Positions 7,315 through 56,995 of a stretch of 64,000 nucleotides of DNA are shown here, one piece after another. Under the pieces are notes generated by a model. It worked only from the letters and a program-made list of their open reading frames with translations. It had not been told where the DNA came from and searched no databases. Each line of letters opens with the position of its first letter. The first letter of the stretch is position 1. Origin of the DNA: Plasmodiophora brassicae (lineage: Eukaryota > Endomyxa > Phytomyxea > Plasmodiophorida > Plasmodiophoridae); assembly GCA_039704465.1 (NCBI GenBank), contig JASFAU010000003.1, forward strand, positions 1,426,001 through 1,490,000. The letters are read 5' to 3'. Both the position numbers and the translations under genes were made by a program.

Positions 7315-7434
7315 GGTTACGTTCATACAACACCGAATGTGCCGTATCTCATTCCGAATTGCGAAGCCAAATGGTGTTTGGCCTGTCCAGTACTCGGGAG
7401 GGGGACCACCGGGGAACCGCATGGTGATGTAACC
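7315..7434 (+). rRNA. 5S ribosomal RNA, dispersed copy 1
   Basis: This 120-nt gene has the eukaryotic 5S layout. Terminal helix bases GGTTAC and GTAACC pair. The conserved CGTATCTCATTCCGAATTGC block and the internal promoter (GAAGCCAAATGG, then CAGTACTCGGGAGGGGGACC) are present. It is followed by a six-T RNA polymerase III terminator at 7435-7440. It differs from the other copies by CCTGTCCAG in place of CCTGTTCAG. The small ORFs in this stretch repeat at every copy and are not genes. Confidence 0.95.
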
Positions 7435-7563
7435 TTTTTTGCCCGGTGCTCGCCGAAGTCATCAACTGCTTTGTCGGCTCACTGCAACGTGCGCCATGGC
7501 ATGGCAGTGCGCCTTGAAAGAAGCGTGCTCCCGTGAAGTGGGTGCACCGCCGGAAGGACCTTC

Positions 7564-7683
7564 GGTTACGTTCATACAACACCGAATGTGCCGTATCTCA
7601 TTCCGAATTGCGAAGCCAAATGGTGTTTGGCCTGTTCAGTACTCGGGAGGGGGACCACCGGGGAACCGCATGGTGATGTAACC
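7564..7683 (+). rRNA. 5S ribosomal RNA, dispersed copy 2
   Basis: Second 120-nt 5S gene, tandem with copy 1 after a 129-bp spacer, with a T5 terminator at 7684-7688. Its sequence is the common form (CCTGTTCAG, GGGGGACC). Its upstream flank resembles the shared element only weakly. After the terminator both copies 1 and 2 continue with a similar GCCCGG motif. Confidence 0.95.
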
Positions 7684-7688
7684 TTTTT

Positions 7689-8111
7689 GGCCCGGCTCAT
7701 CCATCGTTCGTCGACTGGCACGTTCGCATGCTGGCTCGCGAGGTCTTTGTCCCATACCATGCGTTGTTGGCGACTGACATACACGTCATTGGGCACGCAA
7801 CCGAAAGTGGCTCGGCACCCTCTTCAGAGCGTAACATCAGAGGAATCGCAGACGATGGAACGTCGCGTCAAGCATGTGATCTATGCGAGGATGGCTGCGA
7901 CTTCCGTATGGACCCGTGCTGCCCACGGGCTTGGAATTGGGAAAAATCGGCCATGGCGTCGTTCGAGTCTGTGACACAGTGCGAGGTGGAGGTCAGCCTC
8001 ACGGGGCTTTTGATGCGTTCTGCCCCGGTAGTGTGAAACCGATCGTTGCAGAGCCGAGTGCGGTCGTAGGGGCGGCAGCCGCAGCCGCAGCCGCACGCTG
8101 CCGGCTCGACC
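7689..8111. other. Intergenic region before USO1
   Basis: 423 bp without a gene I can support. A plus-strand open frame of about 100 codons exists but shows no recognisable domain. A short CAGCCG-type run at about 8070-8100 precedes the USO1 start. It presumably holds the USO1 promoter. Confidence 0.4.
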
Positions 8112-10589
8112 ATGTTCTCCTTCCTGACCGGGTCGACGTCGACGACCGTGCCGACGTCGCGATTGCTGTCTCGCGTCGAGCATTCGAGCGTCGTCGACGA
8201 GCGCGTCGACGCTCTACGCCAGTTGAATGAGATCCCGCTGCATACGCTGACGAAGCATCGTGCCGCCCAACACCTGGCCAGGGTGCTCGTGAATACTGCC
8301 GAACATCATCTCGATGATGCCGACGTACACATTGAAATCATTCAAACGTTGACGCTGTTGACGACAACGCCGACACCAGGCGGCGTGAACGATATCGACC
8401 TTCAAGGTAGCCTCCGACATGATTTGCGTTAGCCAGCGAGTACCAATGTTGTTCAACATTCTATTCACATTGTGTTCAGCTCTGCAATTATTCTGAGGCG
8501 AGGTCTTGCAGGTGATGATATCGATGGAGACGAAGGGCAAAGTTCAGCTGCCGACGCCCAAGAAAACGCGGATATGTTCTTGCAGAATGAGGACGCGCTG
8601 GACATTCTGCAGATGTTTCTTGAACCCAGCCACTCTGTCTTGGTTCGCGTGCATACGCTACGCCTCCTTCTGCAATTGCTGCGCCAGCGCACCAGCCTGG
8701 TCCAGGAGGCGATTCTCTCACGATCCGGCTTCATCAAGATCTTGATTGAGCTGCTCGGTGCTGCTGGCGAAATTCTTCGCAATGAGGCAATTTTGGTCAT
8801 GGAGGCACTCGTCACTGGAAACGCTGCCATTCAGGGCATCTGCGCTTTCAATGGGATCTTCGAGATTCTACTTGGCATCGCCAAAGACGAAGGTGGCCAT
8901 GGCATCGTCGCCGATGACTGCTACACTTTGATTCTTGCCCTCATTCGCGAGAATGTGTCCAACGTCAATTATTTCCGGGAGGTCGGATGCATTCAACGGT
9001 TGTTCCCGCTACTGCTTTCAGTGCAGAAGGCATTTCATCTCAAGTCGCCGCCGCCTGGCGCGGTACAACGCCAAACATCAGACCCTGGTGTACCACCTGT
9101 TCCAGCTGTCAAGCCGACCGCATCTCTGTCGCTCCTCTTCGACATCATCACTGTTGTTGATGCTGGCCAACGTTCGCAAGCGCAGCTGGCCACTATACCT
9201 GCCATTGACGCCTACTTTTCCATTATCAACGATGGGGATTTGCCGTCAGACATAGCATGTGGCCTTCTGCGAATCATCGGTCGAAGCGTTCTGTGCTGCC
9301 CTGCTTCTCGCACCGCTCTGTCCTCTTGTAGAGTTAACGGGCTCACTGCTCTAGTTCACGTCCTTCGCATTGCCCTTGATGGTCATGACATCAACCAATG
9401 CTCGAACGCGTTGTTCCTTCTGGAGTCATTCTACTACGATAACGAAAAGGCGCAGGTGGCTGCCGTATCCGCACTCGCTCCCCACCCGTCTGATGTTGCT
9501 CCATCCTCCATTGCTCCACTGCTCGTGCAGTCACTTGAACTCTGGCGCAACGACCCCAAATCATTCCGGGATTCGATTCGGTACTGGATCACGACGCGTC
9601 TTCTGTCACTTCTGGTTCGACGGAACGAGACGGCGAAACAGATTGCGCTGTCGACAGCGATAGCAGAACCCGTTGACGAGCGCCCTGCTCAACGATTAAT
9701 GGATTCCATCGTTCGCACGATTCAGGCCGCGTTTGATACATCACATGCTGATGCTCGTGTTCGCTCGTCGCTGCTGCTTCTGCTGTGCGAATGCCTTGCT
9801 GACTCCAGTGAGTCAGTGTCGATCTTGCTGGGGTCCGCGCATCTCACCGAGAGCCTGCTTGCTGTGGCGCCCTGGACGTCCACCGACGTCGTTGTTAGTG
9901 GACTTGGCACGTTCGTATGGGCATTATGTCTTGTGCATTCAGATATTGAAACGTTTCGTCCCACTCTCCGTCGGGTTGTTACTTCGGTTATTGGCGTTGA
10001 CCGATTCAAGATGTGCCTTCAGCGACTTCGTGCGTCTCCAGAACTTGCCAAGGTTCGAGATGAGCCATGCTGGGAACCGATGCCCATAATGCAACTAGTG
10101 CTATTCGACAGTTATTTTTCGAGCCAGTTCGAGAAGGTCGTCGACCTTTGCGATTCCCGGCTGCTCTTGATTGTCATCAAGCGGGATGGGCAGGCCGACG
10201 ACAGTGTTCCCGAGCAGCCACGAGTGATACCGTCGTCCGTAATATCAGACGAGCTTATCGCTGCCCGGTCACGAATCGCCGAGCTTGAGTCAAGTCTTCA
10301 AGCTGCCCTGGACGAGCTGGCAGATAAAACCGACGACGTCGCCCTGACCCGGTATCGTCTCGACCTTGTTCAGCAGGAGCTTCGCGACCTATCTTCAAAG
10401 GCCGGTCATCCCGTCTCTGATGGGGACCGTGCCCTTGAAATGAAACTCGGTGAATTGCGGACGGAGCACAACGTTCTTCTCGACCAGCACAACGACCTTC
10501 TCCTCCTCCTTGCCGCCTACGAGGACCCGGGCACTGCTGAGCGCCGCGAATCCAATAACTTCATCGACCCGCCCTCCCCGCTCCCGTAA
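8112..10589 (+). CDS. General vesicular transport factor p115 / Uso1 homologue
   Basis: Uso1/p115 is the golgin that tethers ER-derived and intra-Golgi vesicles upstream of SNARE pairing. There are two exons, 8112-8406 and 8512-10589, with a 105-nt intron, giving 790 aa. The armadillo-type globular head is well conserved: EILRNEAILVMEALVTGNAA, GIVADDCYTLILALIREN and NVNYFREVGCIQRLFPLLL match the family block for block. After about residue 650 a coiled coil starts (ISDELIAARSRIAELESSL), but it is far shorter than the long tail of animal or yeast proteins. The C-terminus is Asp/Pro-rich rather than strongly acidic. The start at 8112 is the first ATG of the frame. Confidence 0.9.
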
Positions 10590-10762
10590 ACCGTTTTTCA
10601 CGGTCTCTACCCATATCAGCGCAGATACATATCCACTGTCTAAATACATCTTTATCGAGATTACCGACGAATAGCGGGACTCGCCTGACGTCGGGATTGC
10701 CAGGTGAACCCCTACAACGGAAATTTTTTGGGTCGCCGCCACTGTTGCGGATCGTCGTCTCG

Positions 10763-11658
10763 ATGTCGGACGCCACCAAGATCCTCAACGAACTGAAGAC
10801 GGCGTTCGCCGCCAAGTCGCCCGACCTGAAGAAGTGCCAGGCGCTGGTCGACTCGTTTAAGGTATGCATGCGGGCGAGGTGCTGTCGGGAAGCACGCGTC
10901 TGATGCGGGGCGCAGTTGGCCTTGCTGAAACTTCCGGTCACGCCGCCGTTCAACCCGTCGGATCCCGCTGTTCGACAGCATCTGGTCACCGCCAGAGACG
11001 GGTTTGAAGTCGCTGTTCTGCTCAGTCTGCACCTCAGCGATCTGGCTGCCTTCGAATTGAATTTCCAGCAGCTGAAACCGTATTACTTCGACTTTGCGTG
11101 AGAACCCTCGGTTTTCTCCCGCTTTCGCTGGTAGACTGATATGGGTTTTATAGATCGGTGCTGCCTGAATCGTCTCAAAAGTGGCCTGTCCTTGGTCTGC
11201 GCTTGCTGAGTCTCCTCGCCGAATCTCGAATTGCCGAGTTCCATACGGAACTGGAGCTTCTGCCGGTTGCATCACATGGGAACCAGTTCATCTCGTACGC
11301 GATCGCTCTCGAGCAGGAGTTGATGGAAGGCAGCTACCGGTCCCTGTGGGATGCGAGCTCGAAGGTCCCGTTCCCCGAATACAGGTTCTTCGTTGACCAC
11401 CTCGTCAGTGCCGCAAGGGACAACATTGCCGAATGCTCTGAGAAGGCCTATCGGGAGCTCACCCCGGAGGACGCCATCAAACTGTTGAAGCTGTCGTCTA
11501 CCGCCGCACTAAGTGACTTCTGCGCCAAACGAGGATGGGAGCTCAAGAACAATGTCGTCCACTTCCGCCCCGTCGTCGACCAAACGTTCTTCATTCCGTC
11601 AAAGGAACTCATCAAGCAGGGGCTGGGATACGCGACCGAACTCGAGCGTATCGTCTAA
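10763..11658 (+). CDS. 26S proteasome regulatory subunit Rpn12 / PSMD8
   Basis: This is a lid subunit of the 19S proteasome particle, required late in lid assembly. Three exons (10763-10861, 10916-11097, 11154-11658; introns of 54 and 56 nt) give 261 aa, close to the core length of the family. N-terminal helices ILNELKTAFAAKSPDLKKC lead into the PCI-type fold. The segments FISYAIALEQELMEGSYRSLW and RDNIAECSEKAYRELTPEDA are typical of the CSN8/PSMD8 domain, as are VHFRPV and a helical C-terminus. It lies 173 bp downstream of USO1 in the same direction. Confidence 0.92.
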
Positions 11659-12205
11659 TGCAGGTCCGGACACTGTATCCATAAAATGAATCGCAACTTA
11701 ACGCTTGACCTGAAGACCGGTGCTCCTGACGGAACTAGCTACTATGATTTACCTCGTGCTCGGCAACAGCGAAGACTTTCCTAGGCGCCAGAGCACCGTG
11801 TTCGCGTCCGATGGACTCCAGGTAGCCAACGCCAGGCAATCAGAGATGTTGTTCTCAGATTGCCATGGCAGTGATGAGCCCATAGGCTCCATACCCTTGG
11901 ACCAGATCTGTAACTTGACGATCCTACGCTGGGCGCGCTCATACGCTCTGGGACGATACATATCACCGAATGATGCCCGTGGATGCCAACAGAGCCTTCA
12001 GTACACCAACGATCCTCACGTTGTGCCCAGAGGCGTCACCCAGTGCTTCTCCGTCCAGGCTTTGTCGCCGTTAGATGTCGTAGATCCAGGGTGCCTCGGG
12101 AGGCGGGACGACTGATGTCTCGTCGTTACGAGATGCTTGCAAAAGTACCCAGCAGACCGGACACACGCCGCGTGCTTGGAACATTGACATCGTACCATTA
12201 TATCA
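11659..12205. other. Intergenic region, no gene seen
   Basis: 547 bp between Rpn12 and the DUF4604 gene. Open frames occur on both strands (for example plus 11720-12115), but none shows domain similarity, a convincing splice pattern or a signal sequence. No RNA gene was recognised. Confidence 0.4.
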
Positions 12206-12774
12206 TTATTCATCATCCCCGAATGACAGCAGGTTGGCCTGCACCTTGCCAGGCCTCCTTGGCGAGGACGACGCCTTCGCAGTAGACGCCTTGCTGGCAC
12301 GGTTCCGCTTTCGGAACGCATGACGTCCAGGATTTTCCGCTTCCAACGCATCTGCTTTAGCATCGGATGGGTTAACAGCAGCGGGTTCCGGCTCCAGATC
12401 CGGCTGCGTCTCTTCTCGCTCCTCGTCTTCGCGTTGAACGCCGGACACGCCCAATTCAGCCAACAGCTCAGCATTCTTCGGGTCTTGCAATTCGTCCTTG
12501 TAATCGTCAATGTTTACGACAACCGGTACGAGGTCGTCACCCTGTTTGCGCTTCTTCGCCGCTCGCTCCGCTTCACGCGCATCGTGCGCATCAGCGGCCG
12601 CGTGCAAGCTGGTCGGCGCGGCGACCTCCGGGTGCTCCTCCTGGTACGCCTGCAGGAACTTGGGTACCTGCCCGCAGACACTAGCACGTCAGCGCGTCCG
12701 CCGCCAGTGACCCAGACGGGGGGAGAATCCGCGTTCCGAACCTGCTTGACGTACTCGACGCCTTTCCGGGACAT
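12206..12774 (-). CDS. DUF4604 / KIAA1143-like nuclear protein
   Basis: Exons on the complement are 12774-12742 and 12667-12206 with a 74-nt intron, giving 164 aa. Three landmarks of the DUF4604 family are present in order. The N-terminal VEYVKQVPKFLQAY corresponds to SYVRPAEPAFLARF. A central DDLVPVVVNIDDYKDEL corresponds to the QVVVLK..DLS..E region. The C-terminus is ANLLSFGDDE, the family's LLSF plus acidic end. Between them is a charged, low-complexity segment. The function of the family is not established; a splicing association has been suggested for some members. The very short first exon encodes only 11 residues. Confidence 0.7.
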
Positions 12775-12986
12775 TCGGATCGCTTGGCCCGTGGGGTGGG
12801 CCCGTGGGCCCGCGGAGTGGGCGGACCCAACTGCAATTTCGGGGCCCTGATTTTAGGCGGGTCCGCCGACTGCCGCCGCCCCCCGCTCCGCCGCCTGGAT
12901 GAATTCCTGCACAACGGGGATTATTTGTAGTTGCGACCGAATCGTCCGACGCGCGCGGGTCGGCTGCGGCGTTACACACGAGGGCC

Positions 12987-13487: not shown

Positions 13488-14055
13488 GCCACATACACCC
13501 CTAATGTCCAGCAGCGCACGCAACGTGGCGCCCAGCGTTGCCCTCCGACGACATATACAGTCTATAACGGCATCGTCGTACGACGTCTGGGGTTTGCAAT
13601 GCGGGCAGGGCCAGCAATCGGAGACGCAGGCCAGGATAGAATCATCGCCCAGCTGGATCTGCGCTGGGCTGCGCCACGGTCGTGTGGGAGAGCCCGATCC
13701 CCTTCGTTTACGTTCTGGCTGGCTGGCCTGCTTCAGCTGGCGGCTCTGGATAGCGCGAGAAGGCCGTCCCGCAATTCGTGGCTCGGCCGCAATGCATCGC
13801 CGGGTCGTCCACGTACGTGGCGACCATGCTGACAGTCGGAACGGTAGCGCGTCCAGGCAGCGGAATCGTTGTGTGTGTGTATGTGGAGTCGAACCCGGAT
13901 GTTTGTAGGTAGCCGTTCGCAGAGGGACGTGCTGGCGCCGTCGTCTGGCGGGGCTGATACCGCGAGGAGAAGGCACAAGCGGAAACGCGAGTCCAGGGTG
14001 CCGTTCGACAAGTTGGTACATGACTGTGGCTGTTCGGCGCTCTGCATTGCTGAAG
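13488..14055. other. Intergenic region, no gene seen
   Basis: 568 bp before the exonuclease gene. A long minus-strand frame (about 12972-14078) crosses it but overlaps the membrane protein antisense and has shadow-like composition. A short GT run lies at 13870-13882. Confidence 0.4.
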
Positions 14056-17307: not shown

Positions 17308-17378
<71 letters not shown>

Positions 17379-19570
17379 TGCAGACGCAGCAGCAGGTGCA
17401 ACAGAACCAGCAGCAGGTGCAGCAGCAACAAGAAAACGAGCAGCTGAGTGATAACACGAAACTTGTCAAGAAACGCGTTGTCATTACGACGACGATGGGG
17501 ATGAACGCGACGACAGCGCCCACACCGGCGCCGACCGTGCCGCCTCCGACCACGGCCGCCCCGCATCTGCCACCTATCGCCGCCTACAACCCGGCAACCG
17601 TCGTCAAGAACACGAACAGTTACAACGGAGACGTTGTCGTTCCGCCGCCCACGACGTCGCCAACGTACGCGGGCGTTGTTGACGGGTCGGCCCCCGTTGT
17701 CGACGATGACATCATGCACCAACGCGTCAACGTCCCCGTTGCCGACGAGCAGGTCTGGTTCCCAGAGACGCAGCTGAACCACGTTGGCCCCAGGCCCGTT
17801 ATCGTGCCACCGCAGGCGCCTGCCGCAGGCGGCAACTCTGTGGGCCCCCAGGCGCCTGTCGCAGGCGGTAACTCTGTGGGCCCCCAGGCGCCAGGCGGCA
17901 ACCTGCCCGGCCCTCAGTCGCCGATCAACGATGACGACCCGCCCCTGCCGATCGTCATGCCGCCTACCGCGCCTGGCTTCGTCATGGATGCGATGCCGAA
18001 TGGCCCTGTGCGAGGGTCGTCGCCGAGTGTCGCCATTGCTGGCTGGCAGGAACCTGTTCCAGCTGGTCCCCAGCGTCCCCGCAACCCGCCAGCGGGCGTC
18101 AACGTCAACAGCGAGTTCGTTGTCGATGACACCGACGTGCCGCGTACGGGCGGATCGGCGTTCCCGACGACGCGCTCCAACGTCGTCATTGTCGGGACCA
18201 GGCGTCGCGATAACGAACCGTTGCCTCCTGTGGACACGTTGCCCATCGACCTGAGCCCATCGCGCCCCGATCGTGTCGCCATCGTTCGCCCGCCGCCCGC
18301 CCGCCGCATCATCATCGTTACGCCCACCGTCGTGGACGGCACCATCGTCGAAGACGAGGACGACGACGACAGCGATGTCACCATCAACGACTTCAGCTCG
18401 AACACCGTCAGCGGCGTCAGCAACACGAACGTGAACAGGAACACGGTCGGCACGAACACGAACGTGAATGCGAACAGCGTCAACACGAACAACGTCAACA
18501 ACGTGAACACGAACAACGTGAACACGAACAACGTGAACACGAACAACGCGAACACGAACAACGTCAACACGAACAACGTCAACACGAACAACGTGAACAC
18601 GAACAACGTCAACACGAACAACGTCAACACGAACAGCGTCAACGTGAACAATGTCAACACGAACAATGTGAACGTGACGGTGACGCCAGCGCCAACGCCG
18701 TTCCCGACGACCCCATCGCCGACCCCATTCCCGACACCGGCGCCGACGCCGTTCCCGACACCAGCGCCGACACCCGCCCCGACAACGACGTCGCCGCCGC
18801 CGTCCCCTGTCATCATCAACCGCACGACGGAGACGATCGAGATCGACGGCAACCTGGAGAAGAAGACGTTGCAGGCGTCGCAAGTCCAGCCGGAACCGGA
18901 GCTGTCCCGGGTCGGTCTTCGCGAGTACAAGGGGCGCAAGGACCCGCCGGCCAAGACGCCCGACCACACCACGGTCGACGTCTGGACGGCCAAAGCGCCC
19001 GAGCAACCGGAGCCGTCCACGATCGAATCCGGCAACGTCCTCGCCAAGCGCAACGTCAAGGTCGAGCGATTCGGGTCGGACGCCGGCGCCAAGGGCGACG
19101 TCACCGAGTCGTCCGAGGTGATCGACGCCGACCTCGTCAAGGCCAAGTTCCCGAACGAGGGCACCGTCTCCGCCGACCGCCTCGAGCGCGACGTCAGCAA
19201 GTCCAAGGACGTGTTCGCGCGCGGCAACGACCGCGGCGAGTTCGACGTCGCCAAGTCGTCGACGGTGCAGGCGTCGGCCGACGAGAAGACGGCCGACGGG
19301 CAGCACGAGCGCCAGGCGCAGGTGCAATCGGCGTCGCAGAAGCAGTCCTGGGAGAACTTTGGCAACCAGAACACGAACGGGTCGTTCGTCGCCACCGGGT
19401 CGACCCGAACGGGGGCGAAGCGTGTCGCGCGCGACGGCGGCGACATCCGCACCGACCGATCCGGATCCGCCCAGCACACGTCCGTCGTCGAGTCGTTCGA
19501 CGCGCCAACGCCGTCGTCGTCGTCGTCGTCGAAGGTCACCCTGGACAGGAAGCCGGGCCCGTCCCTGTAG
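17161..19570 (+). CDS. Secreted low-complexity repeat protein (poly-Gln, Asn-Thr pentads, Thr-Pro)
   Basis: The protein begins with a signal peptide, MRFDALALLALVAISAAAG, followed by Gln-rich sequence. Signal and body lie in different frames. Removing 17284-17311 (28 nt, GT...AG) joins exons 17161-17283 and 17312-19570 in frame for 793 aa; a slippage frameshift in the CAG tract is the alternative. Order: poly-Gln; a Thr/Pro linker; three copies of APxAGGNSVGPQ-type units; an Asp-rich patch; roughly 15 pentads of NTNNV type (18420-18670); TP(F/T)PTPAP repeats; then about 260 charged residues lacking repeats. No transmembrane or anchor signal is seen at the C-terminus. An extracellular matrix or coat role is inferred. 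Long antisense frames over this gene are composition artefacts. Confidence 0.75.
18421..18675 (+). repeat. 15-bp tandem repeat array encoding NTNNV pentads
   Basis: The unit AACACGAACAACGTC/G is repeated with few changes. Variation is mostly at the third base of the Val codon, which alternates GTC and GTG without changing the protein. This suggests selection on the peptide or recent expansion with conversion. Confidence 0.9.
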
Positions 19571-36011: not shown

Positions 36012-36131
36012 GGTTACGTTCATACAACACCGAATGTGCCGTATCTCATTCCGAATTGCGAAGCCAAATGGTGTTTGGCCTGTTCAGTACTCGGGAGGGG
36101 GACCACCGGGGAACCGCATGGTGATGTAACC
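36012..36131 (+). rRNA. 5S ribosomal RNA, dispersed copy 3
   Basis: 120-nt 5S gene of the common sequence form with a T6 terminator at 36132-36137. It stands alone between the thiolase and RPL12 genes. Its upstream flank lacks the shared 30-bp element seen at copies 1, 4, 5 and 6. Confidence 0.95.
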
Positions 36132-36137
36132 TTTTTT

Positions 36138-39466: not shown

Positions 39467-40539
39467 AGGTACGTCTTGCCCCTTCAACCAGATGTCAGGC
39501 CAATTTTGAGCAGTGAGGCGACTACATCACCTGGCGGCCCGTTTCTGTCCTCAACAGATGGCGATGCTGTGACCACGACGGTGACACCAGCAGTCCGCAT
39601 AGTTCAGCATACCACTCAGGACTCCTACCATGGCGTCAATTAACATCAGACAAAAGCCCAAACGTTTACAGACGTTGGGCTTGTGCTCCTAGCCTTGAAG
39701 ACGTCCGACCTCATCGTCCTAAGCAGTTGATAAGACAGCCAGTTCCAATCAGATCAGCAAGAGTGTTCACCGTTCTCCATACTGCGGCAGGTCTTGCTCG
39801 CCATCACAAGGGATGCGCTGGGAACGCTGATCGACAAGTCTTCCTTTAACGAGACTGTGGCATTCAGCACTGCGAACCTGGGCAACATGTAACTCCAATC
39901 ACCCCGTGCATTCAATTGGGGTAAACCAATGCGGCTGTACCGTGATGCCATTGAGAACCGGGCTGAGGGCTGGTTCCGGAGACGGAGGGCGATACTCGTC
40001 GTTGCTGGCACCGCCTGGCTTCATGGTCTTGCGTGCATAGTACGTCCGTCGCGAGCGCTTCCATTGCGAATCGCGGCCAGGCGGAACGCCTTCTGGAGCA
40101 ATCTGTGCAGCGCCCTGTCGGCTGCACGGCACCGTCCGATCGTTGTCCATGCCGCATCCGTCACCGCAGTACCGACGGCATCACCTCATTATGGCGGCGC
40201 GTGCGGTGGCCGTGGCAGACGTCCAGGTGGACGGAGTGATGGGGATGGTTAGAACGTACAGGCTGAGGCTGGTCAACGTTCCTCACACCAGTGCTGCTGG
40301 GAAGGTTGATACGCGGTTGGCAACACTGTGGGCCCGACGGACTTCGTGACGTACATGGGTCAATGCATCAGAATCTGATATCGACCAGGAGGCAGAACAG
40401 CGTGTACGACCATTCGACCTGGCGACACCCATCATAGATCGCGTTGTCCTGTTGGAGATGCCGTCACCACCAAGCGTCTTCGGTATGCTTCCTAACCAGG
40501 CTAAAGGAGACAAGTAATCGGTAGAAGCACCGACGGCAT
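39467..40539. other. Unassigned region between the SET gene and the 5S inverted duplication
   Basis: Short coherent-looking frames occur on the minus strand at 39754-40150 and 40283-40513 and on the plus strand at 40195-40350 and 40370-40517. None carries a recognised domain or makes a full gene that I can splice. Some may be 3' exons of the giant gene to the right. Confidence 0.35.
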
Positions 40540-40683
40540 CTCCACATGGTCATCTTGGAACTCGACATCTGTCATCTTCGCGCCAGGCCGGGTAAGTCAG
40601 CCTGCCTGCTGGATCCATTATCACGGGCGCACGCCGATTCGCAGGCAACCACCAACTTGGCAGAATCAAAAGGTTCCAAAAAA

Positions 40684-40803
40684 GGTTACATCACCATGCG
40701 GTTCCCCGGTGGTCCCCCTCCCGAGTACTGAACAGGCCAAACACCATTTGGCTTCGCAATTCGGAATGAGATACGGCACATTCGGTGTTGTATGAACGTA
40801 ACC
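40684..40803 (-). rRNA. 5S ribosomal RNA, dispersed copy 4
   Basis: 120-nt 5S gene on the minus strand, common sequence form, with the A6 run at 40678-40683 acting as its T6 terminator on the complement. It lies in the left arm of the 300-bp inverted duplication. Confidence 0.95.
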
Positions 40804-40836
40804 GTTAGTGCTGGTGGTGCATCTCCGGCTTGATGT
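40804..40836 (-). promoter_or_regulatory. Conserved 5S upstream element, copy 4
   Basis: The 33 bp before the gene match the upstream element of copies 1, 5 and 6, with three extra bases (AAC) next to the gene, shared only with copy 5. Confidence 0.55.
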
Positions 40837-40979
40837 AATGCATAGCTGCGGCCAGCCTTCAGGCAGCGCGTCAGGTCAAACCTGACGTTTCGGCCCTGGA
40901 GTGTACGGCTGCGACGCCGATGCCACCCGTCCCACATCAGTTCGTGACGTATGCATCGCTTTCAAGTCCAGCGCCATGG

Positions 40980-41232: not shown

Positions 41233-41242
41233 CCAGGGAATT

Positions 41243-41275
41243 ACATCAAGGTGGAGATGCACTACCAGCACTAAC
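41243..41275 (+). promoter_or_regulatory. Conserved 5S upstream element, copy 5
   Basis: 33-bp element directly before the 5S gene, same pattern as copies 1, 4 and 6, including the extra AAC shared with copy 4. Confidence 0.55.
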
Positions 41276-41395
41276 GGTTACGTTCATACAACACCGAATG
41301 TGCCGTATCTCATTCCGAATTGCGAAGCCAAATGGTGTTTGGCCTGTTCAGTACTCGGGAGGGGTACCACCGGGGAACCGCATGGTGATGTAACC
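41276..41395 (+). rRNA. 5S ribosomal RNA, dispersed copy 5
   Basis: 120-nt 5S gene with a T6 terminator at 41396-41401. It has one substitution in the internal control region, GGGGTACC in place of GGGGGACC, which could reduce TFIIIA binding. It is antisense to the giant Cys-rich gene. Confidence 0.93.
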
Positions 41396-41599
41396 TTTTT
41401 TGGAACCTTTTGATTCTGCCAAGTTGGTGGTTGCCTGCGAATCGGCGTGCGCCCGTGATAATGGATCCAGCAGGCAGGCTGACTTACCCGGCCTGGCGCG
41501 AAGATGACAGATGTCGTGTTCCAAGATGACCATGTGGAGCTGCGCTGGAGGTGCCAGCAGCGTGTCGCATGAGGAACCTCTCCCATCGGCAAATGTGGA

Positions 41600-44500
41600 G
41601 GGGACCGATGGCAAATCCATTACTGAAACGTTTATGGAGCCACTGTCCGATACTGAGTGCCAAGGTTGACGCCTGCCGTGTTTCCAAACTGATCGATGCA
41701 CGATCCCGGGCAATAGTACCCGCTGAGCACCACGCCGCTGACTTGAGTCAGGCCATGTGCTGCACAGTACATGCCCGGTGGGCACTTCTGGCATTCAACG
41801 ACAGACATCAGCATGGTCTGGTTGCCAAAGCGACCAGGTGGGCATAACGGCAGCGTTGTGTTCGACCCGGCCGGGCAATAGAATCCAGCCGGACAGGGTA
41901 GCGGGTTCGTCGTTGCCTCCGGACAATACCACCGTGCTGGGGCAATCACGAGATCAGCGGTCAATGTCGCGACAGGGTTACGACTGTACCTGGGCACTGT
42001 AAGCACGTCGATTGCCCTGAGAAGATTCGATTAGTAAATTGATGGGGTTGACATTTCGAACACTGTCCGACCTGTGACGTTCTGGTACTGGCCTGGGGCG
42101 CAACCGATCGGTGCCGAACTCCCAGCTGGGCACATCGTTCCTGTCGGACAGATGCCCGATGATGGCGTTGACGTTCTCACGCCCCCGGTGCAGTAGTATC
42201 TGACATTAGCATATTCTACTAAGCAAAGGCGAATTCGATCGAGACGTCGAGCGCAAGACCCACCCAGAAGTGCATGGTCCGGTCGGCTGTGCAGCACCTG
42301 GTACACTGCAGTACGAGCCACCTGAACAGGCAGTACACCTAGATCATGGTCAATACCAACGGAACGAGGCTGGACGTGCAAGACGGACTGTGACAGGTTC
42401 GTTGCGCCAGTCACGTTCATGAAGGTTGACACGGGGCACGAGGCCGGCGTCCCTGATCCAGCAGGGCAGTATGACCCCTTCGGGCATACGACAGCCTGGG
42501 CCGACGTGGATGATGATGGGCAATAGTAACCCTGCGTGCATGGTCCGCTTGGTGCCGATTGCCCTTGATTCGCGCAGTACGACCCTTGTGGACAAGGAAG
42601 GCATTGCGCTACTGACCCCGCGTTCGCTGTCGGGTTATACGATCCTGCTGGGCATAGCTTGGCAACGGCGCTGCCTGCAGGACAATATGCGCCTACACCC
42701 ACGCTCGTCAGTATCGAACGAACACGTACGAGGCCGTTTCTCAAACCGGTCGGGCATTCGTTATGGGTCGTCATTGACGCATTCGCGCAAAGACGACCGG
42801 CGGGACATGTCAAGCACGATCCGGTCGCCGAGTCTGGGTTGTATGTCCCTGGTGAGCAAGGCAACGTGGTACTGCTGCCCACGAGGCTGTATCGTCCAGG
42901 TGGTGCAGCGTACTGTTGCGGGTTGGCAGCCGACCCAATGCAATAGTACCCTGCCGCGCATGGCCCACTTGGATTCGCGCTCCCGCCTCCCGAACAGTAC
43001 TGTCCCGGTGGGCATGGAATGCAATCCGATGACGATACCGCGCCTGTCGTGTTGCGGAATGATCCTGGGCCACAAGCCGTCGGGCGTGACGATCCAGCGG
43101 TTGCATAGTACCCAACAGGCACAATAGCACCACCATCGGTAGGCAAATGGGGCGACGCTGTAAGCGAGTTGCCAGTGCAGTAGTATCTAGTGGGACATAT
43201 CGTCAGAGGAGGGACGTTCCAAGAAAACCAGTGGGTTACCCAGATGAGCATTTCGCGTCGGGAGAGGTTAACCCCGGCAGATCACAAGCCCAACCAGCCG
43301 TGCATGGCGTACAAGACGAGACGCTTCGCAGTCCAGTCGTATTGCTAAAGGTCCCGATCGGACAATGCTGAGGGGATATCGTTCCCGCTGGGCAGTAACT
43401 GCCAGCAGGACAACTGACAGGCGCCGAGGTTCCGGCCGCGGGGCAATAATATCCTGTGGGTCGGCGGTCAGCTTTGGCAGCAACGTTCGGCATCACCGTG
43501 AACACTGGGCCGACCTGGTGTGCATGATGTACAGAACGTTGCCGACGTGGCTCCCGTCACGTTGCTGGATACGCAGGCGTTAAGATACGACGGAGCAGGC
43601 GATCTCGGGACTTACTTGAATGTCCCAGCAGGGCAAGCAGCAGCGGTAGCGTTTGTGCTGCTAGCTGGGCACCAGTACCTACAGACATGTTCCGTGTAAG
43701 ACGTCGACCATGCAGAATCGAGAGGATGAGTGCCACCCTGTGGCACAGGCACCCGTAACAGTAGATTGGGCTGTGGCGTTACAGTATGACCCAGCCAAGC
43801 ACCCCAGGCAGGAGCTGACAGATGCGCCACCGGGTAGCGGATTGTATGTTGAAACGGGGCATGGCACCTGAACTGGGGTGGCTGCTGGACAGTACCAACC
43901 AGGCGCACAGGCATGACTTTGAAGGTTGGGCACCACCGTCGAACTACAGACAGAAGTCCTAGCGTCAACGATACGGCGACGTTGTTTAGCGTCCAAGCGA
44001 CGAACTTTGAAGGACAGAAAAGGCCGGGAGGGCACGTTCGTCCAACGAGATCAGCATCAGAGAGAGTTCCCGCCTCACAGTAGTATCTGTTCAGGGAGGC
44101 ATGAGAATAACGAATGCGTCAACCGCGATATACAGCGTACCCAGCAGGACACGTTATGCACGACGAGGAATTTGAAGGAGAGTACGAACCCGCAGGACAT
44201 GGGATCGGTGTCACTAGCGCCAGAGAAGGGCATTTGTATCCTATCATCCTCAACGTCACAATTGTGACGAACATCGCTGATTGAGCATATTCTTTCACCT
44301 GCTGGGCACGACAAACAGGATGTCGGCTTGCCAGATACAGGGTACGCACTCGTCGTACCAGACACGTTCGCGTACGTCTTGATAGGACACGGCCAATAAT
44401 GGGTCGACCCCGTTGCGTTCACGTAGTATCCAACCGGCGCAGGTGTGCACCCGCTGCTGTCCGTCAGGTTCGTCAGTGTGGAATACGTGCCCAATGGGCA

Positions 44501-50500: not shown

Positions 50501-53011
50501 GTTGAAGATGCCCCGTGTCAAAGCAAACACGGTGGGGACAGCGCTCAACGACTCCTACCTGGACAGATCGTGGCGGCAGTTGAGTTGCAGCGAAATCCAG
50601 CAGGACAGGTCGTGCACGATGACGAGCGATTCGTCGCGGAGTACGACCCCGGCCCGCATGGCGAGCACGACGTCGCCAGTCCCTTGCTGAAGGTGCCCGC
50701 CGGGCAACTCTGCGGTACCGATGACGTTGACGCTGCCATCATGCCAGGTGAAGTTGCAGAGCAGTTCGCGTTGCCATATCCCACTGCGTAATAGCCCACA
50801 GCACAGGAGGCACAGGACAACTGGCCGGCGCCTAACATGTACATAGTCAACGATCCTGGAGGATGCAACGCTGCCGCCAACCACCACGAACCGGCATATC
50901 TCCCTGGCGGACACAGCTGGCTGATCGTAGAGTTGCAATACGATCTGCGATGGGCGTTCAAGGCTTAACCTGGCCAGCGGGTCACGCTACGAACCCAGAC
51001 GGGCAGATCGTACACGACGCCGAGCGATTCGCCGGGGCGAACCGACCAGCGGGACAGGGTGAGCACGACGTCGCCAGTCCAGTGGCGTACGTGCCAGCAG
51101 GGCAATCGCGGGGATCCGATATCAGCGACACCCAAACCGAACCCGGTGGCGTCGCCGAGCAATTCGACGATCCGGGCCCTTTCGCGAAGTAGCCTGTCGA
51201 GCACGACGAACAGGATCCCTGCCCGGAACCTGTGCCGGGAATGGTCGTACGATAAGTGTGTCGCGGTGCGATGATGCCACGCACGCGTCTTACTGGAATA
51301 CTTCCCAGGCGAGCACAGCACAGGCGCCGATGAATTCGTTAGACAGAACGACCTGCGCAAACGCCGTCTGAGGGCGCCCTTCCAGACGAGATGCATCGAC
51401 ACACACTGACCCACTGGGGCACGCTGTGCACGCTGCCGACCCCGACGACGATGAGAAGGTCCCGGCAGGGCATACCGTGCACGTCGCCGCCAATCCCAGG
51501 CTAAACGTTCCCGCGGGACACACAACCGGCGCAGATGACGTCGAGGGCGTCATGTACCCAGGGGGCGATGCTGTGCAATTCTGGGCCCCGGCCGTCGTCG
51601 AATACCATCCCGGAGCGCAGGCAACGCACGACGTCCCTCGCTGGTACTGGCCGACGCCGCACAGACCAACCAGGACGCTGGTCTGCGAACTAATGCCGTT
51701 GAGCGCGCTGGTGACAACAACGGGGACCGCGCCCCCCGATGGCAACGCCGGCACCGTGCACCGTATCGTCGTGCTGTTCACGAAGACGGGGCTGAGGCAA
51801 GATGACCCGCCAACGGTCACTGATCCGATATCGGCGCTGGACTGCGCCAGGTTCGTTCCCAGGATCGTGATGAGCGTCCCGCCAGCAACAGGGACCGAAG
51901 CGGGTGCAACTCTGGTCACGACCGGCTGGGCGTTGTAGGTGAAACGCGATGACGCGTTCGATATCGATGAGCGCCCGCCAGAGAGTGTCTGGACTTGGAC
52001 GTTGACAGCACCTGATGCGGTTGTCGCTGGCGGCCGACATTTGACCTGGGTCGACGATATCCAGACGACGTTGGCACAGGGAGCGGACCCACATACGCCT
52101 CCGATGACGGTCACGTTCCCGAGATCGCTGGCGGACGTGCCGAGCAGCATGCCCGAGATCGTGATCGTCGTGGATCCCGCCATCGACCCGTTCGTTGGCG
52201 TGATGGACGTTATGATCGGGACGAGATTCGCGCGAAACGATCCAGCTGCGGTCGGCGACACCGATCCGGTCGCCAGGGCCGATGTTCGCGCCGCGTTCCT
52301 GATCGCACCGACGACGGTGATCGTCAGGGCGCCAGGCGTAGGCGGTGCCGCCCCGGTCGGATCGACGATGACGATCTGCAGAACCGACGCCGACGTCCAT
52401 GTCGACGTGTAGGATGCGCCCAGGGACTGGCTTGCGGTGATCAGCGCGTCCGTCTGCGACTTGGTCAGGGTCGTCGGCCCGCCTGCCATGTCAGTGGCGC
52501 GGTCGAACGCGATCTGGATCGTCGATCCGGCAGCGTAACTCGCCTGCCCAGGTGCGGCAACGCACAGGACTGACGAGATGGCGGGTGCTGCCGCGAACGA
52601 TCCATTCAGAGCAGGAGATGGCGACGAGGATACAGAGGCGCCGAGCAGGTGGCCGTTGATCGTTGCAGTGCAGACGCCGATCTGGGGCGGCGCTGCCGTC
52701 GAAGAATTGATGATTGTAACAAGGAGGACGGACGGTGACAGCCAGAAGCCGGTATAGGATGACCCCAGCGACTGGGAGAAGGTCACGATCGCGTCGACCA
52801 GCGATCGACCTGGAAGCGCATCCGACCCATTCGCTTTGTTCGTGGCGGCGCTGAACGTGACCTCAATGGAATCGCCCGCGGCATACGAATCGAGAGCGGC
52901 CGTGTTCAGAGCCGTCAAGGACACGATCGACAGCGGCGACGATGACCAGGCGATACCGATGCATAACGCCAGCACGACCGCCCGGGTCAGCGCCCGTTGC
53001 TGCCGACCCAT
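41600..53011 (-). CDS. Giant Cys-rich surface protein with signal peptide and IPT/TIG domains
   Basis: The chosen start at 53011 gives a clean signal peptide, MGRQQRALTRAVVLALCIGI. Two repeat-like beta domains of about 110 residues with SYAAGSxIxIxF and QSLGxSYT motifs follow. Then come two IPT/TIG domains (ITSITPTNGSMAGSTTITI; VTRVAPASVPVAGGTLITI). From about 51700 to 41650 the protein consists of more than forty Cys-rich units of CPAGTF/CPPGYYC type with CxxC spacings, similar to GCC2/GCC3 (ephrin-receptor-like) domains. Many short introns break the frame and I have not resolved each one. Such proteins are large cell-surface or matrix receptors in protists. No membrane helix was found before the last Cys-rich unit, so the 3' end is open. 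Confidence 0.8.
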
Positions 53012-53795
53012 CGAACCCGCGGAACGTCGGGACGAAGGCCCCGCCGACCTGAGGCCCCACTGACCAGGAACTGACAAGCAACCCAGCAGATAACATACGA
53101 TGGCGGTGGTGCAACGCAGGGCAGATATCCATTTCACGCTGCTCCTTCGATCAATACGCAGCGCGATTGCCGACGAAACCGGCCACAAGGCAGGATGCCG
53201 TTGTTCCTGCGAATGGGTTGCCGGGCGAGGTTGTAGGCCACGTCGTATATCTTCTCAGTCACAGCTCCACCTGACACGTTCGTGGAGTTGGCTCACTGAT
53301 GTACCTGTCCCAGACCTCAATGGAACAGGTATACCACCCGCGAAGGTCGACCGAACCAGGAGGCGGACTGGGAACGCCGCGCCAGTGCTGACAACGCGGA
53401 CGGCGACGTCAAACGTCGCCATCCCCGTGCTGGCCCGACCAGCTGAGCATCATTCTGCCCGAGTAGACCGTCCAGACGGGTCTGGCGCTGCAGCTATTGT
53501 TTGACGATATGTCGCTTATTGTGTATTGATGTTGCCAACGCGGATCGCACCGCGAGATGGTGATGAGCTGTTGAGCTGTTGATTGTACGACACGGCTGAC
53601 AGGTGACAGCGACCGCCATCATCGTCCTGTTGTAGACTGAACAGCGTCTTAGTGGCCGCAATATACGAAATCGCAAGCATTGGCCGAAATAACGCCACCA
53701 ACAATGTTGTGATGTAGCGTTTGGCGAGCAGCCATTCCGGTGGCCATTCCTTCGTACCATCTTTGCCAATGTGCTTCGAGGTTTCAGGTCCTAAA
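53012..53795. other. Upstream region of the giant gene
   Basis: 784 bp between the giant gene's start and the METTL22-like stop, both on the minus strand. Frames on both strands are unremarkable. An upstream in-frame extension of the giant gene to 53188 exists but would bury the signal peptide. Confidence 0.4.
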
Positions 53796-54524
53796 CTATC
53801 GTGGCCCTCCAGTAACGATCTCGAAGAGAAGCGACGTGGGAGAGCGTTCCAAGGACGTGGCACTGGCGATGTCGCCCATGTCGACAAGGACGAGACCGAG
53901 ACCCGCGTCATCGACGCATCGACGGAAGTGGTCAAGAGCGACGTCCGCGATTGCCATGGTCGCGACGATGAAATTAACACGAGATTCAACGGCGATGAGA
54001 ACGCATGCGCCCTTCGCCAAGTACCTCGACGACAGATTAACGAGCGACGATGTCAACACATCCTCGAAGACTAGGTCGCAGGCGATCAAGTAGTCAACAT
54101 TCTCGATAGGAACGGCATCGAATGGTGTATCTCCGGCTGCCAACTCAACAACATCGATTCGACGCGTCTGAACACGATCGGCAAGACCGTTCCGTTGCAG
54201 GTTCGACTTACATAGCGACAGGACGTCGTCGTCATGATCGCTGGCAACAAACGCCTTGGCAGAAGGTCCGAGGACGACAGCGACTAGACCAGGACCGCAG
54301 CCGACCTCGAGGATCGTGGACTGCCCGAGACGAGGCTGCGTATCTGTTCGTAGGAACCAATCGCAGACCAGCTGACAACACGGCCACGCCTGCAACCCGC
54401 TGTGGTCGACGTCCGTCGAACTCGCGATAGACATGACGATATGCCGATCCGGCGCATCGAACTCCAGCTGTTCGTCAACAGTGTTCAACGCACCAACGAC
54501 ATCATCGCCGCTGTCGCTCGCCAT
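53796..54524 (-). CDS. METTL22-like lysine methyltransferase (Methyltransf_16 family)
   Basis: Unspliced 242-aa frame from the ATG at 54524. The SAM-binding motif I is ILEVGCGPGLVAVVLG, followed by ASDHDDDVLSLCKSNLQRNG. The family's D-x-x-Y/F motif region reads LIACDLVFEDVL. CVLIAVESRVNFIVATM resembles the METTL22 branch. W-x-x-x stacking residues lie at AWPCCQLVCDWFL. METTL21/22-type enzymes methylate lysines in chaperones and other proteins; the target here is unknown. Confidence 0.85.
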   Translation of the reverse strand: MASDSGDDVVGALNTVDEQLEFDAPDRHIVMSIASSTDVDHSGLQAWPCCQLVCDWFLRTDTQPRLGQSTILEVGCGPGLVAVVLGPSAKAFVASDHDDDVLSLCKSNLQRNGLADRVQTRRIDVVELAAGDTPFDAVPIENVDYLIACDLVFEDVLTSSLVNLSSRYLAKGACVLIAVESRVNFIVATMAIADVALDHFRRCVDDAGLGLVLVDMGDIASATSLERSPTSLLFEIVTGGPR

Positions 54525-54675
54525 AACCGAAATAGAACGACGCGCACTTTTCTACGCTGCACCAAAGCGCTACACACGGAAGAGTCTCACGCATCCCGGT
54601 AGAACTCGGCAGAGTTTAACGGACACTGGTGTTGCATTCCTCTCTTCGTGGGGTCGACGACGGCACGAATCAGGC

Positions 54676-55294
54676 TCAGGCCCCCGGGGCACCGTTGAGG
54701 ATGCGCTGGAGGATCAGCAGAAGAAGCACCAGAGTGATCATGTGCGGGCCTTGCGCCTGGAGTGCATCGGAGTAGGCCTGGTACTGGAGACAGCAGAACT
54801 TCGACCCGTTCTGGAAACCTTTGGAAGGACTGCAAAAGTCAGATGGGGTAATTGGATCCTGACACTGACTGGATGATCCTGTCCGTGTTGATCATCAGCA
54901 ACCACATTCACGGAGCACATTTTCTGACGGGATTAATACCTTGGCAGCAACGAAGAGGCGGATGGAAGTTTGTGTCGGACGATAGCGTGGAACATTGCTC
55001 CGTATTCGTTGTCAAGCACTGGGGGTCGCCTGGACTCGGCACGAGAGTTGGAGGGAAGTAGCGAACGCCATGATTGTGCGGGTCCTGAACCGACGGGTGG
55101 CTTGGGTCGTCATATGGAAATGCACCTGCACCTGTTTTACCGTCTCCGCCTTGGCCACCACGGCCTTCACCCCCGCCATGTTCGCCACCGCGACCGCCTC
55201 CGCCGCCACCACTTGCACCAAAAGCCCGCTTCCCATCAAGGATGGCCAGAACAACCAGTAGAAACGTGAACAGGAACGCTCGGGCGGGAACCAT
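54676..55294 (-). CDS. Small secreted Gly-rich protein, possibly GPI-anchored
   Basis: On the complement, MVPARAFLFTFLLVVLAIL forms a signal peptide at 55294. A Gly/His-rich segment and FPYDDPSHPSVQDPHNH follow. A downstream coherent exon holds DFCSPSKGFQNGSKFCC and ends in MITLVLLLLILQRILNGAPGA plus a TGA at 54676-54678, a hydrophobic end suited to GPI anchoring. The join between the two parts (around 54860-54960) could not be fixed in phase. No family recognised. Confidence 0.45.
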
Positions 55295-56015
55295 CGATCT
55301 CGAATGTGGGACTCGTGTTTCCGCTATGCGGACTGCGGAATGCAAACGCCGCAGATCCGATGCACCGCGCGCTCCCGATTTAGCACCGCAACAGCCATCT
55401 CATGAGCGTTGAGTCGATCGCCCATAGCCCACAGGCCACTGTTAGAGCACGCCCCCGTTTACGGACGATGCCGCACGGTGTCCGTGGCGGTGTGCCGTTC
55501 GTTGACTGTTGAGGGCGGGGGGACCGGAGGGGTGCGGACCCACGACGGCCTTGCAACAACGGCCGACTGCCGGACTCGGAGGGGTCCAGTCCTGTATTTT
55601 ACACGCCGTCGATGTGAATAGGTAATAGAGGCGACTCGTTCTGCGCTAACGTTTTCAATGCGGTTCGGATCGCAGGCGGCGCTGGTGCCCGATCACGGCT
55701 CGGTACGTGCGTGCCCCGCGTGCACACGTCGCTCGAAGGCTCAACTGGCGCCACCAAGCCGCTGTTTGTTCTAGACCCTGTTTCCGCTGATCTTGGACAA
55801 TCAGCCTACGTGAACAAGGCGCTGTCCGTGCTGCTGGCAGGAACCGACCACCTGACGACGGCCTCGCCTAGCCAGGGCGGCGTGGGCCATTCACATTTCA
55901 TGGGTGTGTCGGCGCACTCGTACTTGTTTAGTACTGCGAAGACCTCCGTAGACATCAACGTGACCGACTCGCAGAATTCGTTGGTGGATGTTAACACAAG
56001 CGCCGTCGTCATCCA
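55295..56015. other. Region before the inverted duplication
   Basis: A plus-strand frame at 55711-56076 and the antisense frame from the left arm cross this region. No recognised domain and no RNA gene. Confidence 0.35.
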
Positions 56016-56212
56016 GGGCTTCTTCTTCCGCCCCGGATCCGCCTGGGCCTCCAGAGCCCTCTTGGTTAGCGCGTAGTGCCGACCTGGGAAACGCACAATG
56101 CGCTCGGCGGTCTTCCCGATGTGCTGGATTCTTTTGGCGTACGCGTGAATCGTCTCATCCGGCATCATCGAGAACTGGCACTCGCTGTCCTCGACGAGCT
56201 TCGGACAATACT
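56016..56212 (-). repeat. Inverted duplication, left arm (197 bp)
   Basis: Reverse complement of 56250-56449 at roughly 90 percent identity by eye, separated by a 37-bp spacer. On the minus strand it encodes MMPDETIHAYAKRIQHIG followed by KTAERIVRF and ADPGRKKKP. Confidence 0.85.
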
Positions 56213-56249
56213 GCCGTGCCAGATGGTTGTGCTATTTGTACAACGTCGT

Positions 56250-56449
56250 AGTATTGCCCGAAGCTCGTCGAGGACAGCGAGTGCCAGTTCTCGATGATAC
56301 CAGACGAGACGTTTCACGCGTACGCCGAAAGAATACAGCACATCGGGAAGACCGCCGAGCGCATTGTGCGTTTCCTATGTAGGTCGGCACTAAGCGCCTA
56401 CCAAGAGGGCTCTGGGGGCCAGGCGGATCCGGGGCGGAAGAAGAAGCCC
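56250..56449 (+). repeat. Inverted duplication, right arm (200 bp)
   Basis: On the plus strand it encodes MIPDETFHAYAERIQHIG, then KTAERIVRF and ADPGRKKKP, so both arms keep the same reading frame in head-to-head orientation. Indels between them are in the segment after IVRF. No family recognised for the peptide. Confidence 0.85.
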
Positions 56450-56845
56450 CGTTTGGGACTATTCTACGATCCCCTCATATTTGTAGACCGCTTGCTCGTT
56501 CCGTACGTCGGAGGTCATGGAGCGCGGTTGCTCCCCATCGCAACCTGTGGCGTCTTCAGCTGGCGGCGACAAGGCCAACGCGGACAGCGGCGGGCGCTCG
56601 ATGCATGTCCGGAGTTCCCTGAGGTCATGAATCATGATGATGATCGGTGAGGATTTCGCTGCGGCCATGACGGAGCGTGGGCATCGCGTCGTTCAGCCCG
56701 GGTCAACAACACGCCATGTCCTATGTTGTCCAGGAGCGGTCGGCCTCTTTTCGTAAGCCCGGCAGGATCGGGGAGATCATTGGTTTTCCTGGCAGCGGCG
56801 TTCCAAATGGAGGGTACCCGGCGGTAGCTACCTATTGTTTTAATT
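56450..56845. other. Region between the inverted duplication and 5S copy 6
   Basis: About 400 bp. The right-arm frame continues to 56650 without recognisable domains. The last 60 bp resemble the region upstream of 5S copy 1 (a shared GGCGGyAGCTA and following bases). Confidence 0.35.
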
Positions 56846-56875
56846 ACATGAAGGCGGAAGTGCACCACCAACACC
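56846..56875 (+). promoter_or_regulatory. Conserved 5S upstream element, copy 6
   Basis: Nearly identical to the element of copy 1: 28 of 30 bases by eye. Confidence 0.55.
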
Positions 56876-56995
56876 GGTTACGTTCATACAACACCGAATG
56901 TGCCGTATCTCATTCCGAATTGCGAAGCCAAATGGTGTTTGGCCTGTTCAGTACTCGGGAGGGGGACCACCGGGGAACCGCATGGTGATGTAACC
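56876..56995 (+). rRNA. 5S ribosomal RNA, dispersed copy 6
   Basis: 120-nt 5S gene of the common sequence form. The terminator is only T4 (56996-56999) followed by GGG, shorter than in the other copies. It lies 213 bp from the dynein stop codon, convergent with it. Confidence 0.94.

Follow-up and report, generated by a model that had tools for sequence, protein, structure and literature searches.

The window, that is, the whole stretch of 64,000 nucleotides of Plasmodiophora brassicae DNA that was analysed, contains exactly six matches to the Rfam 5S rRNA covariance model (RF00001), with scores of 82.1–83.6 bits against a cutoff of 38. All six alignments span model positions 1–120 and are full length. 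An earlier note on this DNA had placed six 5S genes at these positions, on both strands, and had proposed a covariance-model search as the check; RF00001 scores every one of these intervals well above its cutoff. The genes and the features associated with them are as follows.

7315..7435, plus strand: 5S gene 1 (L021), first of a tandem pair; T73C allele, its sole change; RF00001 82.6 bits
7436..7563, plus strand: spacer between the paired genes 1 and 2 (unit of 249 nt); homologous spacers lie at C3:702k and C3:1136k (from flanks, BLAST and pair scores)
7564..7684, plus strand: 5S gene 2 (L022), consensus; Rfam 83.6 bits
35981..35987, plus strand: site of the upstream box (-31 to -25) belonging to gene 3, which alone among the window copies is in the 12-copy motif set
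36012..36132, plus strand: 5S gene 3 (L023), consensus; Rfam
40536..40839, no strand assigned: left arm of a 304-nt inverted duplication (98%), holding gene 4
40683..40803, minus strand: 5S gene 4 (L024), consensus, within the left arm; Rfam
41240..41543, no strand assigned: right arm of the 304-nt inverted duplication, holding gene 5
41276..41396, plus strand: 5S gene 5 (L025), G90T in a hairpin loop, within the right arm; Rfam
56845..56874, plus strand: short upstream flank of gene 6, 29 of 30 nt matching 7284–7313 upstream of gene 1
56876..56996, plus strand: 5S gene 6 (L026), consensus; Rfam 83.6 bits

Four of the six genes are identical over their first 120 nt, and the other two differ by T73C (gene 1) and G90T (gene 5), which bears out the near-identity that had been claimed for them. 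Each gene is followed by a run of 4–6 T, again as noted earlier. Genes 4 and 5 are the only ones with both flanks in common at the strict cutoff. The downstream flanks of genes 6 and 1 are dissimilar despite the matching short upstream flank, and a search for free copies of the flank at 56400–56874 returned the flank itself, a 5S locus at C3:1295093–1295231 and an adjoining inverted stretch of 50 nt. Gene 3 precedes a thiolase gene that is encoded on the other strand, and its flanks match no other copy. No other Rfam family scored above its own cutoff in the window, and ARAGORN, run with the bacterial code and no intron search, found no tRNA there.

Across the assembly, 28 near-full-length 5S copies and four relics were found, giving 32 places on eight of the 21 contigs; the window holds six of the 28. 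The whole-genome DNA search scored all 31 of its candidates, yielding the 28 near-full-length copies and three relics, and the fourth relic was added by a pattern search. In the RF00001 genome search, in which 47 of 1684 candidates were scored, all 29 listed matches were over the cutoff. A 100% identical RPL12 points to P. brassicae, a member of Rhizaria, as the source of the assembly. No long 5S array was found in the assembly, where the longest tandem run comprises two intact copies and one relic and tandem pairs are spaced at 249–285 nt. The 5S genes of P. brassicae thus appear to form a dispersed family, at many loci on several chromosomes and not in one array. The count falls short of the hundreds of single dispersed copies envisaged earlier; nevertheless, the copies are indeed dispersed and near-identical and probably active too, and the single tandem array elsewhere that would have made them relics was not seen in the assembly.

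The copies are also clustered. In placement simulations that treated 13 contigs as equally long, none of 5000 runs reached the observed 21 of 32 places with a neighbour no more than 30 kb away (mean under the null 2.24), none of 5000 uniform placements of 32 places put at least six in any 64 kb, and 8 of 5000 were as extreme once neighbours less than 1 kb apart had been collapsed (27 places, maximum four). Uniform placement is thus rejected, in agreement with the earlier description of six genes in 64 kb as dense. A special base composition at the 5S loci was considered and rejected, the G+C content being 58.9% around 30 loci (the 28 near-full copies and two relics) and 59.0% around 21 tRNAs.

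When the 28 near-full-length copies are compared over 120 nt, 12 are identical, nine carry T73C only and seven have other changes, so that two alleles differing only at nt 73 account for 21 of 28. Position 73 is perhaps unconstrained, and recurrent mutation there would mimic conversion. Near-identical 5S genes are also what purifying selection alone predicts. In the nine distinct sequences taken together, pairing is kept in 99.7% of the 306 base-pair cells. The changes in L011 and L035 are one-sided and keep their pairs, one base pair is broken in L028, and in L027 both partners of pair 17–62 are changed (C17G and G62C); this compensatory swap is a single event, and shuffling is a weak control for the covariation, 56 of 500 shuffles matching it. 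The internal control region, the start of which we take to lie at position 50, is almost unchanging: positions 50–64, 67–72 and 80–97 are invariant in the 28 copies except for G62C (L027), G90T (L025) and a 1-nt insertion (L012), in keeping with the intact control regions described for the window genes. The limits 67–72 and 80–97 are those given in PMC6204057.

A T-run of at least four follows all 27 tabulated copies, and L012, which is in addition to these, has one of five. Twelve copies with mutually unrelated upstream flanks all have a C at -1 and a G behind the T-run, and these twelve also carry a weak upstream box at -31 to -25. The summed information over -33 to -25 is 5.38 bits, a value that none of 5000 random-offset sets reached, and in leave-one-out scoring 10 of the 12 boxes ranked among the best 6% of positions in the flank, the exceptions being L016 (41%) and L034 (16%). 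At -31 to -26, the two full U6 genes read TATATA or TATATG. No strong fixed-position box was found in 21 nuclear tRNA genes (the best 30 of 63 matches, less nine that are mitochondrial), and scanning with a 5S weight matrix did no better than in control windows (Mann–Whitney p = 0.17); a box general to Pol III genes is not supported by either analysis. Neurospora 5S transcription requires a TATA box (Tyler 1987, as cited in PMC6204057). The box common to the P. brassicae copies with unrelated flanks is a candidate Pol III promoter element for the group. Judged from their sequences, the 5S copies look functional, because of the near-invariant internal promoter, the T-runs, the C at -1, the weak box and the compensatory swap.

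The flanks were compared in all 378 pairs of copies. With a score above 24 (null maximum 18), 17 pairs share the upstream flank only, six the downstream flank only and one both; thus homology is confined to one side and ends at the gene in 23 of 24 flank-sharing pairs, although these belong to about five flank families and so are not 23 independent events. A looser cutoff gave 25 of 27, and 150-nt flanks at the null-maximum cutoff gave 22 upstream-only, seven downstream-only and two two-sided pairs. Over three lengths and three thresholds the two-sided pairs numbered 2 to 5 and the one-sided pairs 22 to 32; L015/L016 and L021/L022 are two-sided with 300-nt flanks because their flanks overlap. 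In tandem pairs, array geometry partly produces one-sidedness. None of the 17 upstream-only pairs has more than 12/24 identities directly past the T-run, 12 being the background maximum among unrelated copies. L011/L012, classed as downstream-only, has 13/24 upstream identities, equal to the background maximum; L028/L029 have a 25-nt downstream stretch in common that scores 23, just below the cutoff; and L032/L037 have homologous DNA farther downstream. The initial assignment of copies to flank family D was made by eye, and L010/L012 show 19/24 identities.

In ungapped comparisons over 40 positions, three pairs on contig C5 have 32, 36 and 33 identities at -40 to -1, against 9, 11 and 13 beyond the T-run, three other pairs in the list being uninformative or low on both sides. 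The C5 flanks are 82–92% identical while the adjoining 5S copies are 98–100% identical. At four places a unit of roughly 4.2 kb precedes 5S, and at one of them 5S is present at both ends (L030 to L029). Searching the genome with 1078 bp of the C5 segment gave four near-full matches, each of which precedes a 5S gene that marks the end of the segment; all four are on one chromosome, with a partial match of 166 bases on C17. One flank family extends to another chromosome (L037 on C18), and T and C at nt 73 are mixed inside each of four flank families.

Taken together, these data probably reflect a small, functional Pol III-transcribed 5S family, dispersed and not in an array, that has spread mostly by local duplication and is homogenised by ectopic recombination in the 5S genes. 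The dispersed copies are probably transcribed, and an internal promoter with a short upstream box would make each copy independent of its neighbourhood. Copies would multiply chiefly by local duplication of segments, by inverted duplication and as short tandem pairs. The near-identical 125-bp genes would be the homologous stretches that initiate ectopic strand invasion, conversion or crossing-over. Such recombination would homogenise the genes and occasionally introduce or swap one flank, and copies that escape it would become the few relics. The strong conversion suggested earlier gains indirect support from the 98–100% identical genes beside diverged flanks, the mixed nt 73 and the flank homology that usually ends at the gene. 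The active spread proposed as the alternative is borne out only in part: most of what is seen is local duplication, inverted duplication and short tandem pairs, together with the one family that reaches C18, and there is no target-site-duplication signal.

Segmental duplication with strong purifying selection and no conversion would account for the constrained-looking genes, the four relics and the several flank-carrying duplications, one-sided flanks being chance breakpoints and unequal decay; nt 73 may moreover be free to vary. We regard this birth-and-death account as rather unlikely, given that flank homology halts at 5S in most pairs and that nt 73 is mixed in four of four flank families. 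It is less likely still that the dispersed copies are relics of, or minor satellites to, an unassembled main array or 5S genes in the rDNA spacer. The tandem pairs do resemble array fragments, and searches of the assembly for nuclear 5.8S, 18S and 28S came back without a match, so further 5S copies may be unassembled: a 5.8S family search gave no match (39 of 1087 candidates scored), one 18S signature at up to one mismatch was found only on the mitochondrial contig C21, and one 28S signature gave no match; a nuclear gene with more mismatches would escape such signatures. However, 28 of the 32 places do not look like decaying relics: they are near-identical, their structure is intact and their promoter positions are conserved.

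Mobility of the 5S sequence itself appears more doubtful again. Insertion of reverse-transcribed 5S transcripts at new sites, as in 5S-derived SINEs, would leave solo copies in unrelated flanks, and twelve copies do have mutually unrelated upstream flanks and the homologous segments do end at the T-run. Yet the longest shared word averages 5.33 nt in the 12 copies and 5.04 nt in mismatched pairs, giving no target-site-duplication signal; the twelve copies have the box and the C at -1, neither of which is part of the RNA, though selection after insertion could explain this; and other copies have upstream DNA in common over as much as about 4.2 kb. Retroposition was set aside after the negative target-site-duplication test and is improbable. 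A transposable element carrying 5S, Cassandra-like or otherwise with a 5S end, might be read from the unit with 5S at both ends, but is highly improbable: its conserved piece has near-full matches on one chromosome only, the terminal repeat in the L030–L029 case is the 5S itself, the unit is absent from the compared flanks of other copies, and five ORFs tested contain no transposase or reverse transcriptase domain. The carrier was set aside on the missing domains and the single-chromosome unit. In Cassandra retrotransposons (PMC10853983), 5S sequence is likewise tied to a larger repeat, but the 5S promoter lies in the long terminal repeats, whereas P. brassicae has complete genes; terminal repeats beyond 5S, reverse transcriptase and target-site duplications were not found in the five ORFs and 12 copies analysed.

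Ectopic recombination between dispersed functional genes may have a further consequence. We tentatively suggest, at somewhat less than even weight, that the dispersed 5S genes act as recombination ports, 125-bp islands of homology from which ectopic repair begins, and that they hold one another identical across chromosomes. A single 5S locus could in this way become a 5S–spacer–5S pair, or gain a kilobase-scale segment ending exactly at the gene. If so, one process would both keep a dispersed rRNA family evolving in concert and reshape the surrounding genome. With 28 copies, many with their own flanks, in a near-chromosome-level assembly, the family lends itself to the study of how dispersed genes remain identical and of whether they themselves bring about rearrangement.

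Single 5S genes dispersed among protein genes occur in Neurospora crassa, other filamentous fungi, fission yeast and Yarrowia, and P. brassicae is alike in this respect; however, fungi belong to another supergroup, and the P. brassicae copies cluster on eight of 21 contigs and display short tandem pairs and one-sided flank sharing. To our knowledge, 5S arrangement has been described for few lineages beyond fungi, animals, plants and trypanosomatids, and a literature search found no description for Rhizaria. Dispersed 5S genes are already known elsewhere. Microsporidia also have rRNA genes dispersed genome-wide, and the title of PMC3566094 names recombination; there the dispersed elements are rDNA units, whereas here they are 5S genes. 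The 5S genes of Leishmania, according to PMC6562600, are similarly few (9–11 copies), dispersed and highly conserved, but are linked to tRNA genes. No linkage of that type emerged from the window and the scanned loci: Rfam identified a single tRNA in the window and 20 loci, a tRNA-Leu beside L036, and ARAGORN on the window and 20 partly different loci agrees.

The six 5S rRNA genes placed in the window by the earlier note are exactly those matched by the Rfam 5S model, one of them on the minus strand, and the positions given there proved correct to within 1 base. Four of these genes have the same sequence over 120 nt. No other Rfam family scored above cutoff across the 64-kb window, and no tRNA was detected in it by ARAGORN (bacterial code, no introns). 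Ribosomal protein L12 is also encoded in the window, with 165 amino acids identical to a Plasmodiophora brassicae protein. A 15-nt minisatellite (18422-18666, ∼ 13 copies) lies within long overlapping ORFs and reads as an Asn-rich repeat in one frame. Two minus-strand ORFs, 42034-43281 and 51293-53254, have ephrin-receptor-like cysteine-rich matches, the latter with IPT/TIG domains as well, and these matches suggest that both encode large surface or secreted proteins.

The assembly searched comprises 25,344,181 bases in 21 contigs (largest 2,115,091 bp). On one contig, of 114,743 bp, lie many tRNAs together with an 18S-type signature. For P. brassicae e3, the published genome is described as 20 nuclear contigs plus a 114,663-bp mitochondrial contig, with a largest contig of 2,120,846 bp (PMC6823432). 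A covariance-model search of the assembly gave at least 29 5S matches, with scores computed for 47 of 1684 candidates. A 27-nt core, allowing three or fewer mismatches, was found at 32 places (none for the reversed control pattern), and the 125-nt gene used as a DNA query identified 31 places (all 31 candidates scored). The combined inventory holds 28 near-full-length copies and four relics, the latter being:

C3:1136340-1136454, 5S relic
C4:1065941, 5S relic, ∼ 55 nt at 85%
L009, 5S relic, ∼ 59 nt
L038, 5S relic with an internal duplication

The near-full-length copies are distributed over contigs C1 (4), C2 (1), C3 (12), C4 (1), C5 (6), C6 (1), C14 (2) and C18 (1). The 32 places occupy eight contigs, against a mean of 16.2 under uniform placement, and are clustered far above that expectation. 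A family search for 5.8S and two signature patterns found no nuclear 18S, 5.8S or 28S rDNA in the assembly, and so an extra 5S array, or 5S genes in an rDNA spacer, may exist beyond the assembled copies. The analysis covers the genome sequence of one strain.

Dispersed 5S genes are already known in other organisms; in Leishmania, 9-11 dispersed, tRNA-linked copies are described (PMC6562600). The phrase '5S rRNA' is absent from the main text of three P. brassicae genome papers (PMC6823432, PMC4471660, PMC4815078; term search); a mitochondrial 5S ribosomal RNA does appear in the first of them. Judged by titles and abstract openings, in a literature with most subscription journals outside its scope, there was no paper on 5S rRNA genes for P. 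brassicae and none for Rhizaria.

Twelve of the 28 near-full-length copies are identical over 120 nt, nine differ solely by T73C and seven carry other changes. Base pairing is kept in 99.7% of 306 pair cells (nine distinct sequences). In copy L027 pair 17-62 is exchanged on both sides, an exchange that alone is not significant (reached by 56 of 500 shuffles); two copies keep a pair despite a one-sided change, and one pair is broken in L028 (C5:570778). Immediately past its own T-run, L028 carries a second copy of the gene's last 10 nt followed by a C and another T-run, resembling a scar left by recombination or slippage.

The DNA around the copies is shared mostly on one side. Among 378 pairs of the 28 copies (150-nt flanks, score > 24, null maximum 18), homology was upstream only in 17, downstream only in six and on both sides in one; other flank lengths and thresholds gave two to five two-sided and 22 to 32 one-sided pairs. 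These pairs represent about five flank families and hence few independent events. The 21 tRNA loci are no useful control, since just one pair has a common flank, downstream only. Copies L011 and L012 have 1.4 kb downstream in common at 91%, and upstream 13 of 24 identities, which equals the background maximum. On C5, an inverted ∼ 4.4-kb segment (619719-624090 and 635682-640045, 89% identical) has one end at a 5S T-run, and the 5S genes at 570778 and 777540 are preceded by related units. A 1078-bp piece of this unit has four near-full genome matches, all on C5 and all upstream of a 5S gene; its other matches are short internal repeats and a 166-base partial on C17. Copy L037, on C18, shares ∼ 150 nt upstream with C5 copies, so exchange is not limited to one chromosome; with L032 it also shares DNA further downstream. 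Three tandem pairs on C3, spaced 249-285 nt, have a common spacer, and one of them has a relic added to it as a third copy; flank comparison revealed no match among their outer flanks. Separately, a near palindrome (56046-56420) lies ∼ 460 bp upstream of window gene 6, with arms 56079-56212 and 56250-56383 (93% complementary, separated by 37 nt) and additional paired arms at 56046-56085 and 56381-56420 (90%).

Flank homology ending at the gene is the expected trace of 5S genes recombining ectopically with one another: from a broken 5S locus, one end would invade another copy and then copy the DNA beyond. Repair of a single locus from a pair would give a pair with unchanged outer flanks, which would explain the three C3 pairs. 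Such recombination would also homogenise the genes, and the mixing of nt 73 alleles within all four of four flank families agrees with this, although recurrent mutation at nt 73 may underlie it. Purifying selection with chance breakpoints may likewise account for near-identical genes and one-sided flanks. Retroposition of 5S copies gained no support from the target-site test.

Twelve copies without mutual flank match (BLAST, E ≤ 0.001; some match copies outside the set in the downstream flank) were aligned at the gene start. They have in common a box spanning -33 to -25, which from -31 reads roughly GTCAnAA and is equalled by none of 5000 random-offset sets, with mean pairwise identity of 37.7% against 25.5% and 27.2% either side, and all 12 have C at -1. 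We infer this box to be a putative TFIIIB site. Donax 5S genes are reported to have a TATA-like motif around -28, and the same source cites it for Neurospora and others (PMC6204057). Upstream of 21 nuclear tRNA genes, no strong box was seen at a constant position. Both full U6 genes (L076, L077) have TATATA or TATATG at -31 to -26. They also share GGTCCCAT at -68 to -61, perhaps a PSE/USE-like element, in otherwise different flanks. A truncated U6 match, L078 (C3:1-71), lies at the extreme start of contig C3, from base 1.
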